64,000 nt of DNA from Vannielia litorea (GTDB lineage Bacteria > Pseudomonadota > Alphaproteobacteria > Rhodobacterales > Rhodobacteraceae), in the NCBI RefSeq assembly GCF_900142295.1, contig NZ_FSRL01000001.1, positions 1,736,001-1,800,000 of the forward strand, given 5' to 3'. The notes beneath the pieces were generated by a model. That model was not told where the DNA came from. It searched no databases and saw nothing but the letters and a program-made list of their open reading frames with translations. Below are positions 44,812 through 49,629 of this stretch, piece after piece. A program made the translations under genes and the position numbers. Numbering within the stretch: position 1 is the first letter of the stretch; each line of letters starts with the position of its first letter.

Positions 44812-45588
44812 CTACATGCGCCATTGCGGCGTCGCGGCCATCCGCATCAAGCGAAAGCGCTTGCGGAACTCGCTCAACTCCAGCGCCCCGTCGGCCACAC
44901 GGCCCGGGGCGTTGATGGCCTTGCGCAGCAGCACCGGCGCCATCGCGCCGAGCAGCATCGGCGACGACGCCAAGGCACTCAGCCTCCCGCGCCATTGCGA
45001 ACCTGAAGTCATGGCCGCAAGCCCTTCTTCCGCAATGGCTTTCACAGCTTCCGGCCGACCGTCCACCAGCGGCAGCCGACCCCGGCTCTCAAGCTCGGGC
45101 ACGGCTTGCAGATAGCGCGCCAGGGCAGCGCCCCGCCCCCAGGCGCGCAAGCCCTCTTCGGCGTCGGGACCGGCTCCCAAGGCCGCCGCCGCGGCCCAGA
45201 CCAGCCCACCGCCCGTTGCATCGAGGTAGCCCCAGAACGCCGCCTCATCGGCAAACGGTTCCCGCCCCACGTCCCACTCGCGGGCATCGACGCAGGCCAG
45301 CAGAGGCGCCACCGGCACCCCCTCGGCCACCGCGGTGGCCAGGGGCGCGGCCACCTCATGCGCCCGCGCCTTGCCCGTTGCGGCCTCCTCCAGCACGTCG
45401 CGCCAGAACTGCAATCGCATCTGCGCAATCATCGGTTCCTGGCTGGCCCAGGGCGCCCGCGCCAATTCCAGTGCAAAGGCCTGAACCGGAAAGAGGATCC
45501 TGCGCGCGTCGACCGGCGCCGCCATGATCGCGGCAAAGCTCTCCCGCCCCGCGCGGGCAACCAGATCTGCGCAGGCCTGAAGGCTCAT
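44812..45588 (-). CDS. Squalene/phytoene synthase family protein, NDUFAF6-like
   Basis: A 258-residue all-helical protein of the isoprenoid synthase-like fold. The prenyl-diphosphate Asp-rich motifs of true phytoene synthases (DxxxD) are not seen; the protein instead resembles NDUFAF6, the complex I assembly factor (ILFPVQAFALELARAPWASQ, MRLQFWRDVLEEA). It is convergent with grxD and followed upstream by cimA. Complex I assembly is inferred by family only. Confidence 0.8.
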   Translation of the reverse strand: MSLQACADLVARAGRESFAAIMAAPVDARRILFPVQAFALELARAPWASQEPMIAQMRLQFWRDVLEEAATGKARAHEVAAPLATAVAEGVPVAPLLACVDAREWDVGREPFADEAAFWGYLDATGGGLVWAAAAALGAGPDAEEGLRAWGRGAALARYLQAVPELESRGRLPLVDGRPEAVKAIAEEGLAAMTSGSQWRGRLSALASSPMLLGAMAPVLLRKAINAPGRVADGALELSEFRKRFRLMRMAATPQWRM

Positions 45589-45598
45589 CGACCGCGCC

Positions 45599-47230
45599 TC
45601 ACACGCCCGACCGACGCAACTCGGCCCCCGTCTGAACCAGCTTCCAGGTCACCGCGTCGATCAATGCGCCGAAGCTCGCATCGACGATATTGGCGCTGAC
45701 ACCGACGGTGCTCCACCGCCGCCCGGCGTCATCCTCGCTGTCGATGATGACCCGCGTCACCGCCTCGGTGCCGCCATTGGTGATCCGCACCTTGAAGTCC
45801 ACCAGGCGCATGTCGTCGATCCGGCCCTGGTAGGGGCCGAGATCGTCGATCAAGGCGTGCCAGAGCGCGTTGACCGGCCCCGCATCCTGCATCTCTTCAG
45901 GGTGCTCGTTCTTGTAGTAGTTGGTCACCAGCTTTCCGCCCGGCAGCGTCACGGCCACCACCGCCTCGCTCTCCACCACGATCTGCCCGCGCGCGTTGCG
46001 GCGGCGCTCCGAGATCACTCGGTAGCGCTCCACGTCGAAGTAGTCGGGCAAGAGCCCAAGCTCCCGCCGCGCCAGCACCTCGAAGCTCGCCTGCGCCGTG
46101 TCATAGGAAAAGCCCTGCGATTCCCGCTCCTTGATGGTGTTCAGGATGGCGCTCAGCTGGGCCTTGTCGGCCTCCAGCCCGGCCTCGGCCAGCCGCTTCT
46201 TGAGGTTCGAGGTGCCCGCCTGGTTGCTCATCGGGATCACCCGCATGTTGCCCACCAGTTCCGGCGCGATGTGCTCGTAGGTCGCGGGGTTCTTCAGGAT
46301 CGCGGAAGCATGCAGCCCCGCCTTGTGGGCAAAGGCCGAAGCCCCGACAAAGGGCGCCGCCCGCATGGGCACGCGGTTCAGAATGTCGTCGAGCTTGCGA
46401 CTGATGAAGGTCATCTGCGCAAGGCTCTCCCGGCTCACGCCGGTCTCATAGGTGCTGGCGTAGGGCTCCTTCAGCAGCAGGATCGGGATCAGCGTGGTGA
46501 GGCTCGCGTTGCCGCAGCGTTCCCCCAAGCCGTTCAGCGTGCCCTGGATCTGCCGGACACCGGCATCAACGGCCGCCAGGCTGCCAGCCACCGCGTTGCC
46601 GGTATCATTGTGGGTGTGAATGCCGAGGTGATCGCCCGGCACGCCGCTGTCGATCACGTCCTTTACGATTTCGTAAATCTCGCCAGGTAGGGTGCCCCCG
46701 TTGGTGTCGCAAAGGACGACCCAGCGCGCACCGGCATCGAGCGCCGCCTTGAGGCAACTCAACGCATAGTCGGGGTTGGCACTGTAGCCATCGAAGAAGT
46801 GCTCGGCATCAAACAGCGCCTCTCTGCCCTTTGCCATGATATGCGCCACCGAGGCGCGGATGTTCTCCACGTTCTCCTCGAGCGTGATCTCGAGCGCGTC
46901 GGTGACGTGAAAATCATGGGTCTTGCCGACCAGGCAGACCGACGGCGTGTCCGCGTTGAGCACGCCGGCCAGCACCTCGTCGTTCTCGGCGCTGCGCCCG
47001 GCCCGCTTGGTCATGCCGAAGGCTGTGAAGGTGGCGCGGAGTTTCGGCCTGGCCTCGAAGAAGGCGCTGTCGGTCGGGTTCGCCCCCGGCCAGCCACCCT
47101 CGATATGGTCGACCCCGAGGCCGTCGAGAAGCGCCGCGATCTCCTGCTTCTCGGCGAGCGAAAACTGCACGCCCTGGGTCTGCTGCCCGTCCCGGAGGGT
47201 GGTGTCGTAGAGATAGAGGCGTTCGGTCAT
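45599..47230 (-). CDS. cimA: Citramalate synthase
   Basis: A 543-residue enzyme that condenses pyruvate with acetyl-CoA to (R)-citramalate, feeding isoleucine synthesis without threonine. HMGL-like barrel: [17 protein letters not shown] at the N-terminus, the metal-binding [20 protein letters not shown], then the LeuA-type allosteric C-terminal domain (residues about 405-540). Length and the DQQTQG variant fit CimA over 2-isopropylmalate synthase. Its ATG overlaps the cysS stop by 4 bp. Confidence 0.92.
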
Positions 47231-48591
47231 ATCAACGCCTCCAGCTTGGCAGCGTCGAAACCCGGTTTCGCCTCCAGATCAACACCTTGCTTGCTCATCT
47301 TCACTTCCACGCCTGCCTCGGTCAAAGCCGATTTGAAAGCATCCACAGCAGAGAAGTCCTTGCTCTGCATCGCCGCCTCCCGCAGTGCCGCGAGCTGCCG
47401 GGCGTAGCCCGAAAGATCCACCGTCGAGACCGTCTCCCAGCCGGCCAGCTCGTCTGTCAGCACGCCCATGAGTCGACCCGCGGCCAACAGCCCGGCGGCA
47501 TCGCCCTCGCCCGCGAGCCGGTGCATCTCTGCAACCACGCCGGGCGTGTTCAGGTCGTCGGCCAAGGCCGCGAGCACAGCGCGCGGCACCTCGCCCGGCG
47601 TGACGCCAACCACCATCACACGCCACTTCCGCAGCACCGCCTCCGCCTCGCCCCGCTTCTTCTCGGTCCAGTCCATCGGCTTGCGGTAATGCGTCCCCAG
47701 AAACACGAACCGGATCACCTCGCCCGGCACGCCCTGGTCCAGCAAGTCCCTGACGGTAAAGAAATTCCCCAGGCTCTTCGACATCTTCTTGCCCTCGACC
47801 TGGAGCATCTCGTTGTGCATCCAGATCCGCGCAAACTGCCCGTCCGGGTGCGCGCAGCAGCTCTGCGCGATCTCGTTCTCGTGGTGCGGAAACATCAGGT
47901 CGTTGCCCCCGCCATGAATGTCGAAGCTCTCGCCGAGGATCCCGTGCGCCATGGCCGAGCACTCGATGTGCCACCCCGGGCGGCCCTTGCCCCAGGGCGA
48001 GGCCCACCCCGGCTCGCCCGCCTTGGCAGGCTTCCACAGCACAAAGTCCATCGGGTCTTCCTTGTAGGGTGCCACTTCGACCCGCGCGCCTGCGATCATG
48101 TCGTCCACCGAGCGGCCCGAGAGCGCACCATAGGCCTCGTAGCTTCGCACCCGGAACAGCACGTGCCCCTCGGCCTCGTAAGCATGCCCGCCCGATATCA
48201 GCCCCTCGATCATCTCCACCATCGCGGCGATCCACTCGGTGGCGCGGGGCATGTCCGTGGGCTCCAGCGCGCCCACCGCGGCCATGTCCTCGAGATACCA
48301 TTGGGTTGTTTCGGACGTGATCTGACCGATTTCCCGGCCCGACTCCTCTGCCCGCGCGATGATCTTGTCATCGACATCGGTGAAATTGCGCACGTAGCGC
48401 ACGTTCACCGGCCCGTAGACATGCCGCAGCAGCCGAAACAGCACGTCGAAGACGATGACGGGCCGGGCATTGCCGATATGCGCCCGGTCGTAGACCGTCG
48501 GGCCACAGACATACATGCCCACCCGCCCCGGCGTGACCGGGACCAGAAGCTCTTTCTTCCGGGTCTTCGTGTTGTGCAGATGAATGTCCAT
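47227..48591 (-). CDS. cysS: Cysteinyl-tRNA synthetase
   Basis: A 454-residue class I synthetase. HIGH-type motif [14 protein letters not shown] (about residue 32), Zn ligands in [18 protein letters not shown] and [18 protein letters not shown] ([12 protein letters not shown]). GAGGAG lies close before the ATG. Upstream is a Cys-rich leader ORF with alternative stems (48612-48714), so synthesis may respond to charged tRNA-Cys. Confidence 0.97.
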
Positions 48592-48611
48592 GAGGGCTCC
48601 TCGGGGCTACC

Positions 48612-48660
48612 CGCGGGCTTTAGCAACTTCGTCTGGATGATAAAAGAGACCGGGCCCGCG
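48612..48660 (-). promoter_or_regulatory. Alternative stem-forming leader of cysS
   Basis: On the minus strand CGCGGGC (48660-48654) can pair with GCCCGCG (48618-48612) downstream, or its CGCGGG with CCCGCG (48710-48705) inside the leader ORF upstream. The two pairings exclude each other. The second arm ends about 12 nt before the GAGGAG of cysS. A short T-run (TCTCTTTTATC) lies between the arms. Confidence 0.5.
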
Positions 48661-48669
48661 TGACTGATG

Positions 48670-48714
48670 TCAGCAGGGAATGCAGCAGATGTTGATGATC
48701 TCGGCGCGGGTCAT
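48670..48714 (-). CDS. Cysteine leader peptide upstream of cysS (candidate)
   Basis: A 14-codon ORF, MTRAEIINICCIPC, on the same strand and 78 bp before cysS. Three of its last five codons are TGC (Cys), two of them adjacent, immediately before the stop. No strong Shine-Dalgarno is visible before its ATG. Cys is rare in proteins, so the cluster is unlikely by chance. Ribosome stalling at these codons would alter pairing of the flanking GC stems. Confidence 0.55.
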   Translation of the reverse strand: MTRAEIINICCIPC

Positions 48715-48804
48715 GAGCTGTCAGTAGCACCGCCCGCGCAGCCTGCCAAGCCTCTTGTCCCGCGCCGCAAGCCGGGTCAGCCTTGGTGTCAAAGGGAGGC
48801 ACCC

Positions 48805-49629
48805 ATGGACAAGTTCGAAACCTACCGCGCGCTGCATGTGCCGGGCGACCCCTTCATTCTCGCCAATGTATGGGACGTAGGCTCGGCCCGGATGCTCGCC
48901 GGGCTGGGCGCCAGAGCACTGGCCACCTCTTCCGCCGCACTGGCCTTCGTGCAGGGCAGCCGCGACATGGGCGCGATCAGCCGCGACGACGCGCTGGCCC
49001 ATGCAGAGCAGATCGTTGCCGCCACCGACCTTCCGGTGCAGGGCGATTTCGAGAACGGATTCGGCGACGATCCCGACACGGTGGCCGAAACCGTGCGCCT
49101 TGCCGCCGAGGTCGGACTGGCCGGGATCTGCGTGGAAGACATCTCCTACCCTTCGAACCAGCCCTACCCTGCCGAACTGGCAACGGAGCGGATGCGGGCC
49201 GGGGCGGCGGCGGCCCGTGCTCTTCGGCGTGACTTCGTCTTCGTCGCGCGGGCCGACGGCGTCTTGAACGGAGTCTACGGCATGGAGGAGGCCCTCGCCC
49301 GTGTCGCCAGCTTCGATGCCGCGGGAGCCGATGCCCTCTATGTGCCCCTGCCACCCACGCTTCAAGATCTCGCCCGCATTTGCGCCGCTACCACCAAGCC
49401 CGTGAACGCACTGGCCGCCGGCGCCTTCACCGCCGCCACGCTCTCCGATTTCGCGAAAGCGGGCGTGGCGCGCGTGTCGCTGGGCGCTGCACTGGCACGG
49501 GTGACCCACCGGGCGATCCTCGATGCGGCGCAGGCCATGCTGAACGCCGGGGATTTCACCCCGCTCGCCCATTCGGTCTCGGGCGCGCAGATCCAGGCGC
49601 TGATCGACAAGGGCGTGCCAAGAGGCTGA
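48805..49629 (+). CDS. PEP mutase/isocitrate lyase superfamily enzyme
   Basis: A 274-residue TIM-barrel protein of the isocitrate lyase/phosphonomutase superfamily. Motifs: LANVWDVGSARMLAGLGARA, the metal-binding DFENGFGDDP, the Glu-Asp of GICVEDISYP, and FVARADGVL. It lacks the KKCGH of true isocitrate lyase, so a carboxyphosphonoenolpyruvate-mutase-like C-C or P-C lyase is likely; the substrate is unknown. AAAGGGAGG precedes ATG 48805. Confidence 0.88.
   Translation: MDKFETYRALHVPGDPFILANVWDVGSARMLAGLGARALATSSAALAFVQGSRDMGAISRDDALAHAEQIVAATDLPVQGDFENGFGDDPDTVAETVRLAAEVGLAGICVEDISYPSNQPYPAELATERMRAGAAAARALRRDFVFVARADGVLNGVYGMEEALARVASFDAAGADALYVPLPPTLQDLARICAATTKPVNALAAGAFTAATLSDFAKAGVARVSLGAALARVTHRAILDAAQAMLNAGDFTPLAHSVSGAQIQALIDKGVPRG

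Follow-up and report, generated by a model that had tools for sequence, protein, structure and literature searches.

In E. coli, a tRNA synthetase operon is under attenuation by the pheST leader (PheM), and the thrABC and ilvGMEDA leaders read more than one amino acid. The leader analysed here would differ from these in that a single leader would serve both a synthetase and a biosynthetic gene that belong to different amino acids; if true, the charging of one amino acid would be tied, through the attenuator of a tRNA synthetase, to the synthesis of another across a large bacterial family. The closest described element is uORFC-8-2, a predicted ribosome-mediated attenuator with 145 examples, exclusively upstream of cysS in Rhodobacterales, whose model in the consulted text has a U run at the 3' end and a proposed intrinsic terminator (PMC8632094, RNA Biol 2021). 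The trpL transcript of S. meliloti is reported to start at the AUG (PMC10117765, PMC7298713). It shares with the present leader an alphaproteobacterial peptide of 14 residues, a transcript start at the AUG, which is predicted here from promoter spacing, and exclusive hairpins; however, its codons are Trp codons, its target is trpE(G), and termination is reported to yield an sRNA there. Candidate cys leader peptides of Actinobacteria likewise come from short ORFs ahead of sulfur or cysteine genes, with Cys codons in runs close to the stop, but these stand before cys operons and cbs and have no conserved terminator hairpins (PMC1262725); the word cysS is absent from the available text of that paper.

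We analysed a 64,000-nucleotide stretch of Vannielia litorea DNA, hereafter the window, in which the leader and two overlapping genes lie as follows.

48670..48714, minus strand: leader ORF with Cys and Ile codons, in translation MTRAEIINICCIPC and then stop, a putative leaderless uORF; the stop ends 78 nt before the cysS ATG
within 48673..48687, minus strand: proposed control codons C(-5), C(-4) and I(-3), which read CCI in 61 of 94 distinct leaders
48597..48602, minus strand: cysS Shine-Dalgarno (SD) sequence GAGGAG
47227..48591, minus strand: cysS, cysteine--tRNA ligase (TIGR00435 equivalog, 421 bits against a cut-off of 340)
45599..47230, minus strand: cimA, citramalate synthase (TIGR00977, 571 bits; cut-off 450), which shares 4 bp with cysS

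The initial annotation had reported an ORF ending in ICCIPC 78 bp before cysS with three TGC among its last five codons, and both points are exact: the ORF runs from 48714 to 48670 on the minus strand, and its last five codons (48673..48687) are TGC TGC ATT CCC TGC. The neighbouring genes are a divergent member of the PEP-mutase/methylisocitrate-lyase superfamily (48805..49629, plus strand), which scores below all curated cut-offs and shares the intergenic region with the proposed leader promoter, and, after cimA, a squalene/phytoene-synthase-like gene (44812..45588, minus strand; 42 bits with the HpnD model, far under the cut-off of 279).

Like uORFC-8-2 as its paper's consulted text describes it, the element precedes cysS in Rhodobacterales, has an AUG uORF with tandem Cys codons (UGC dominant) and two stems, and is proposed to act by attenuation. 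The tandem Cys codons usually occupy positions 14 and 15 in PMC8632094 and positions 10 and 11 here, where the published choice of start codon may differ; the first published stem contains the cysteine codons, and the conserved stem here that may correspond to it, 1:2, is formed by the final two codons with the stop, the tandem pair lying outside it. The core finding is therefore already known, since PMC8632094 published uORFC-8-2, and the earlier statement that no cysteine attenuator for cysS had been described must be withdrawn, as that motif is in print as a prediction. We put the probability that cysS-cimA is an operon under ribosome-mediated attenuation, by the element known as uORFC-8-2, at about 0.75. 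A literature search under the motif name returned no paper besides PMC8632094, the main text of which does not contain the words isoleucine, citramalate, cimA or leaderless. Likewise, Ile or cimA as part of a cysS attenuator is not described in the titles and abstract openings among the matches listed, which cover few subscription papers. The probable additions to the published motif are a leaderless uORF, joint sensing of Cys and Ile, and a second promoter independent of the attenuator, and the predicted RNA motif thereby gains a concrete anatomy.

The cysS loci compared came from two sources, namely 61 related genomes, of which 59 had a match and from which 30 loci including the window's own were returned, and a scan of named genome contigs, from which the best 80 of 585 were used. 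A leader-like ORF was scored by script in 101 of the 110 loci, a count that includes the window's own locus and some near-duplicates; among the nine loci scored as lacking one is L026, owing to its short upstream sequence. At L007 the choice of the script was wrong, and the leader by eye is MTICCIIPTIIIR. With one genome taken per genus, a covariance model of the element (R1) matches 203 of 248 family genomes. Most of the named leader-bearing loci carry genus names of Rhodobacteraceae, and L048 comes from a strain of Ruegeria pomeroyi; for a few, the title goes no further than Alphaproteobacteria. The contig of record L060, an unverified 'Flavobacteriia' bin, agrees in length, stretch and match values with that of the Roseobacter bin L061. 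Several lineages (L014, L018, L019, L034) lost the leader and retain cysS-cimA, so that it is dispensable; some cimA-bearing loci without an R1 match (L164, L174, L176) show a leader-like ORF by eye.

A spread of the element beyond the family was considered and rejected. Hits occurred in 11 of 289 genomes of the class. The four strong ones belong without exception to the family; the remaining seven scored 22.9-28.2 bits (E 0.001-0.01), a number not far above the three or so that chance would give at the cut-off. Fifteen upstream regions from outside the family, of 20 fetched, contained no such leader by script and by eye. Outside the family, L119 (G043:C493) has a short ORF ending LLICCAYPPI 174 nt before cysS, which was taken as chance, like a few other short ORFs scored there. 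The pattern TGYTGYAT occurs in the window's own genome at the leader and at one other site, which by eye has no such leader. Comparison of the window with the Rfam covariance models returned only two tRNAs at gathering scores; a T-box or other Rfam family was rejected, the three sub-threshold matches at the locus all lying on the opposite strand.

Codon usage was counted on 99 of the 101 leader rows, which give 94 distinct ORFs. The total length is 13 or 14 codons in 92 of the 101 leaders, and the peptide ends resemble IIICCITC. In the distinct ORFs, Ile accounts for 30.0% and Cys for 22.5% of the codons, whereas the 101 cysS genes from these loci have 3.8% Ile and 0.9% Cys. Codon -3 is Ile in 92 of the 94, and Cys stands at -5 in 79 and at -4 in 76, so that control codons for the amino acid concerned, as in a trp-type attenuator, are present. 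TGC outnumbers TGT by 249 to 19 over the 94 leaders. The Ile codons ATT and ATC occur 209 and 148 times in leaders against 343 and 1396 times in cysS genes (p = 2e-46), with ATT over-used and ATA absent. With residue frequencies taken from five coding sequences of the window, at least three Cys in 13 residues has a chance of p = 3e-5, and at least four Ile a chance of p = 1e-3. A chance ORF beside chance GC pairing might be suspected of a short ORF in a GC-rich genome, but this explanation has a negligible probability and is refuted by the conservation of the leader in the loci and genomes counted above and by the covariation of its stems; the sequence comparison confirms the observation as real, far beyond chance.

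The final codon is TGC in 53 and CGC (Arg) in 23 of 99 leaders, an exchange that keeps a base pair and not the amino acid. This bears on a role of the leader RNA or peptide in trans, comparable to rnTrpL/peTrpL of S. meliloti, where a leaderless attenuator sRNA has trans functions (PMC10117765, PMC7298713). Such a role would agree with the well conserved C-terminal half of the peptide, but the frequent replacement of the final Cys makes it improbable, and a cis-acting attenuator is preferred.

The proposed attenuator involves three arms and a tract downstream of the second arm.

48669..48677, minus strand: arm 1, CCTGC from the two final codons followed by the stop TGA and one C, which pairs in helix 1:2
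48654..48664, minus strand: arm 2, GTCA-C-GCGGGC, of which GTCA and GCGGG pair with arm 1 and CGCGGGC with arm 3
48612..48618, minus strand: arm 3, GCCCGCG, the partner of arm 2, with 7/7 pairs at the best place in 53 of 87 leaders and 6/7 in 33 of 87
48639..48651, minus strand: pyrimidine-rich tract GGTCTCTTTTATC 3' of arm 2 (coordinates from the sequence)

CGCGGGC (48660..48654) thus has two alternative partners, an upstream arm or GCCCGCG (48618..48612). In the family, helix 1:2 joins CCYGC-TGAN, made of the last codons and the stop, to NTCA(n)GCGGG, and helix 2:3 joins GCGGGC to GCCCGC before the cysS ribosome site. Helices 1:2 and 2:3 each show covariation and compete for arm 2; they are thus mutually exclusive conserved stems, as in trp-type attenuators. 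The initial annotation had proposed two exclusive GC stems; the exclusivity is conserved, but the upstream partner it had drawn, CCCGCG in codons 2-4, pairs 6/6 in only 7 of 87 leaders, six of them from the genus of the window, and the conserved upstream partner is the last two codons with the stop codon. Its placing of the second arm near the cysS ribosome binding site is borne out, as 9 nt separate the 3' end of arm 3 from GAGGAG.

Stems were evaluated on 87 leaders, after 14 of the 101 rows had been dropped (two wrong or odd, one doubtful, the rest near-duplicates), and on an alignment (A1) of 80 leaders, from which seven further rows had been dropped. In A1, 2:3 together with a hairpin at the stop codon pairs in 85.9% of cells, compared with no more than 47.5% after sliding, and has a covariation of 0.190 against 0.100 +/- 0.007 in shuffles; the values for 1:2 are 84.8% against at most 45.7%, and 0.214 against 0.149 +/- 0.007. 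For both structures, none of 500 shuffles reaches the observed percentage paired, the cells changed on both sides, or the covariation score. Two of the five covariation measures are within reach of the shuffles, which ignore relatedness: the pairs changed on both sides (reached by 22 of 500 for 2:3 with the stop hairpin and 151 of 500 for 1:2) and the further pair types (71 and 375 of 500). An alignment-free test with swapped partners in the 87 leaders favours the true partners of 1:2 in 61 (p = 4e-8) and those of 2:3 in 72 (p = 3e-9), and is weaker for the stop-codon hairpin alone (p = 0.015). The local minimum-energy fold pairs arm 1 with arm 2 in 86 of the 87, and RNAalifold on the gappy alignment A1 predicts no pair. 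Compensations in A1 include GGCGGAC:GTCCGCC (L064), CGCGGAC:GTCCGCG (L050) and GGCGGGT:ACCCGCC (L087). The comparison that the initial annotation had called for, an alignment of Rhodobacteraceae cysS leaders, therefore gives conserved TGC codons and stems with compensatory changes. Its central proposal, ribosome-mediated attenuation by Cys codons, is well supported, as the leader, the tandem Cys and the two exclusive stems are all conserved.

The attenuator may work as follows. The upstream promoter would give transcripts that start at, or a few nt from, the AUG of the uORF of 13-14 codons, and the uORF would be translated without a leader. When Cys-tRNA, and probably also Ile-tRNA, is ample, ribosomes would complete the uORF and depart, and arm 1 would pair with arm 2; the upstream transcript would then be halted in the pyrimidine-rich tract or be poorly expressed. 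When charged tRNA-Cys or tRNA-Ile is scarce, a ribosome stalled at the C-C-I codons would mask arm 1, arm 2 would pair with arm 3, and with 1:2 blocked cysS-cimA would be expressed. A second promoter in the loop of 2:3 would supply basal cysS-cimA mRNA independent of the switch. A ribosome footprint reaches about 12 nt beyond the A site; on this measure, a stall at codon -5 would mask part of arm 1 and a stall at -4 or -3 all of it, with arm 2 largely free.

Termination of transcription is graded as a possible output, because a strict scan for intrinsic terminators passes none in the window and the first TT there lies 9 nt after GCGGG. In 62 of the 87 leaders, five or six T occur within 12 nt after GCGGG. 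The tract GGTCTCTTTTATC is probably the U run of the published motif uORFC-8-2 and possibly a terminator tail. The output might instead be translational, in that stalling at Cys codons would let 2:3 form and free a cysS SD that otherwise stands beside a 3:4 hairpin, with no termination, and cimA would follow by translational coupling through the 4-bp overlap with cysS. This would suit the lack of a passing terminator, the closeness of arm 3 to the SD (9 nt), the overlap of the two genes in the window, and the SD-adjacent hairpins that can be drawn by eye in many leaders. The predicted accessibility of the SD is also slightly higher when 2:3 can form (0.386 vs 0.360; Wilcoxon p = 0.004). The median difference is tiny (0.009), however, with shifts above 0.05 upwards in 24 and downwards in 11 of the 87 leaders, and the 3:4 hairpin beside the SD is unsupported, being better than its swapped partners in 48 and 50 of 87 leaders (p = 0.16 and 0.09). 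We regard the translational alternative as unlikely, and the modelled case for a purely translational switch through the cysS SD as weak; the altered translation suggested in the initial annotation keeps this small effect in its favour, although the accessibility barely changes.

Joint sensing of Cys and Ile by the attenuator is suggested by the 30% Ile codons together with the next gene, which encodes citramalate synthase, the enzyme at the entry to Ile synthesis. The Cys-centred interpretation of the initial annotation is sound as to the Cys codons but overlooked those for Ile, and also that cimA stands second in the operon. cimA was found in 228 of 248 family genomes (one per genus), and a hand count from coordinates places it next to cysS in 33 of the 34 family genomes having both, the other having them on two contigs. 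An R1 match is absent in 11 of 20 cimA-less and 34 of 228 cimA-bearing genomes (Fisher p = 1e-4), and among good genomes in 6 of 10 and 29 of 205 (p = 0.002). This two-by-two comparison of leader and cimA is confounded, because in all nine cimA-less genomes that have a leader the contig stops in or shortly after cysS, or inside cimA (G177); of the 11 cimA-less genomes without an R1 match, five were inspected, and two of these carry a leader by eye (L192, L197). The argument from cimA therefore relies on the inspected loci and not on the comparison of counts.

Four genomes (G017, G077, G135, G180) lack cimA and have directly after cysS the squalene/phytoene-synthase-like gene that in the window comes next to cimA on its downstream side. 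Three of these show no leader by eye, and G135 alone keeps one: its leader (G135:C19, L192), MDWICCLCRA, is rich in Cys and has one Ile, the sequence that follows looks rearranged, and the covariance model missed it. Three Gemmobacter loci have no leader and no cimA in the flanks covered, which extend for only 3.5, 3.5 and 1.5 kb. In a FastTree cysS tree of 119 sequences, these losses fall in five places, some weakly supported. The sister of G017 in this tree, L170 (G199), has cimA and no leader, so the loss of the leader in the G017 lineage may precede that of cimA. At G020:C19 (L113), where cimA lies beside cysS, the leader MNAPNRIIGIIIGG has five Ile and no Cys, and the stop-codon hairpin TGACGAATCGTCA is kept. 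In G132 (L197), an assembly of 870 contigs, the leader MGTAIRICGICITV has both Cys and Ile, and no cimA is found in the 658 nt covered after cysS.

The Ile codons may also have another purpose, with only Cys-tRNA sensed: they could provide an A/U-rich unstructured stretch or a slow pacing of the ribosome. The preference for ATT over the ATC usual in cysS genes could serve the RNA in this way, and L197 has both residues in its leader and no cimA in the sequence covered. By the ribosome footprint, only Ile(-3) fits a masking of arm 1, because from -6 to -8 a ribosome stalled on Ile would be too distant to reach it. The published control codons, in the consulted text of PMC8632094, are the tandem Cys codons as well. 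Yet both Ile synonyms, ATT and ATC, occur at -6 to -8 with the amino acid kept, which favours selection on the amino acid; Ile at -3 is nearly invariant (92 of 94); and L113, with cimA adjoining, has Ile without Cys, while L192, without cimA, has Cys and a single Ile. Sensing of Cys only is thus possible, if a less probable account than not. On balance we lean, on sequence evidence, towards a two-amino-acid sensor in which one leaderless peptide would read the charging of both Cys and Ile for cysS-cimA, with a bypass promoter of its own located within the switch hairpin's loop. This leads to a sharper prediction, namely that limitation of Ile as well as of Cys should induce cysS-cimA, and that the second promoter should give an attenuator-independent mRNA.

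The promoter-like elements, all on the minus strand, are listed here.

48744..48749, minus strand: -35 box TTGGCA of the proposed leader promoter, with TTG beginning 35 or 36 nt upstream of the leader start codon in 79 of 98 rows
48721..48726, minus strand: -10 box TACTGA of the proposed leader promoter, with TA 12 or 13 nt upstream of the leader start codon in 81 of 98 rows
48617..48645, minus strand: internal promoter-like element TTTTAT-N17-TAAAGC in the loop of 2:3 (consensus TTTCCA-N17-TGCTAAG in majority letters), with nearly fixed spacing

The spacing of the leader boxes was counted on 98 rows. Because the -10 box ends 6 nt before the ATG, transcription is expected to begin on the ATG or no more than a few nt away from it. 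SD-like words occur upstream of 8 of 96 leader starts, against 94 of 101 cysS starts. This rarity, together with a promoter-like spacing locked to the ATG, suggests that the uORF is leaderless, and it would be a good model for the regulatory use of leaderless translation. The initial annotation was right that a leader SD is not obvious; it had counted this against the attenuator, but the absence is no weakness, because the promoter spacing points to a probable leaderless uORF. A strict scan of the window for the sigma-70 consensus did not pick the proposed leader boxes; the sole minus-strand site that passes, CTGACA-N18-GATCAT (48724..48695), spans the ORF start and differs from the promoter proposed here.

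A weight matrix of the internal element was built from 78 leaders and applied to 22 loci in which, according to the script or the model, the leader ORF is missing. With mononucleotide shuffles, 12 of the 22 have the element at p ≤ 0.002 and 15 at p < 0.05, against 2 of 21 at p < 0.05 in a control stretch 240-360 nt upstream. Ten of the 12 loci at p ≤ 0.002 have it 30-39 nt upstream of cysS; L164 and L176, both among the 12, show a leader-like ORF by eye. The element is probably a second promoter that would bypass the attenuator, in addition to the upstream one. A transcript start downstream of 48670, which the initial annotation had named as evidence against attenuation, may thus partly exist, as the internal promoter-like element is conserved, but we interpret it as supplementing the upstream promoter and not as replacing it. 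At the G017 locus (L022) the internal element is absent (p = 0.99). In the Gemmobacter loci the element follows, by eye, a terminator-like hairpin of the upstream gene.
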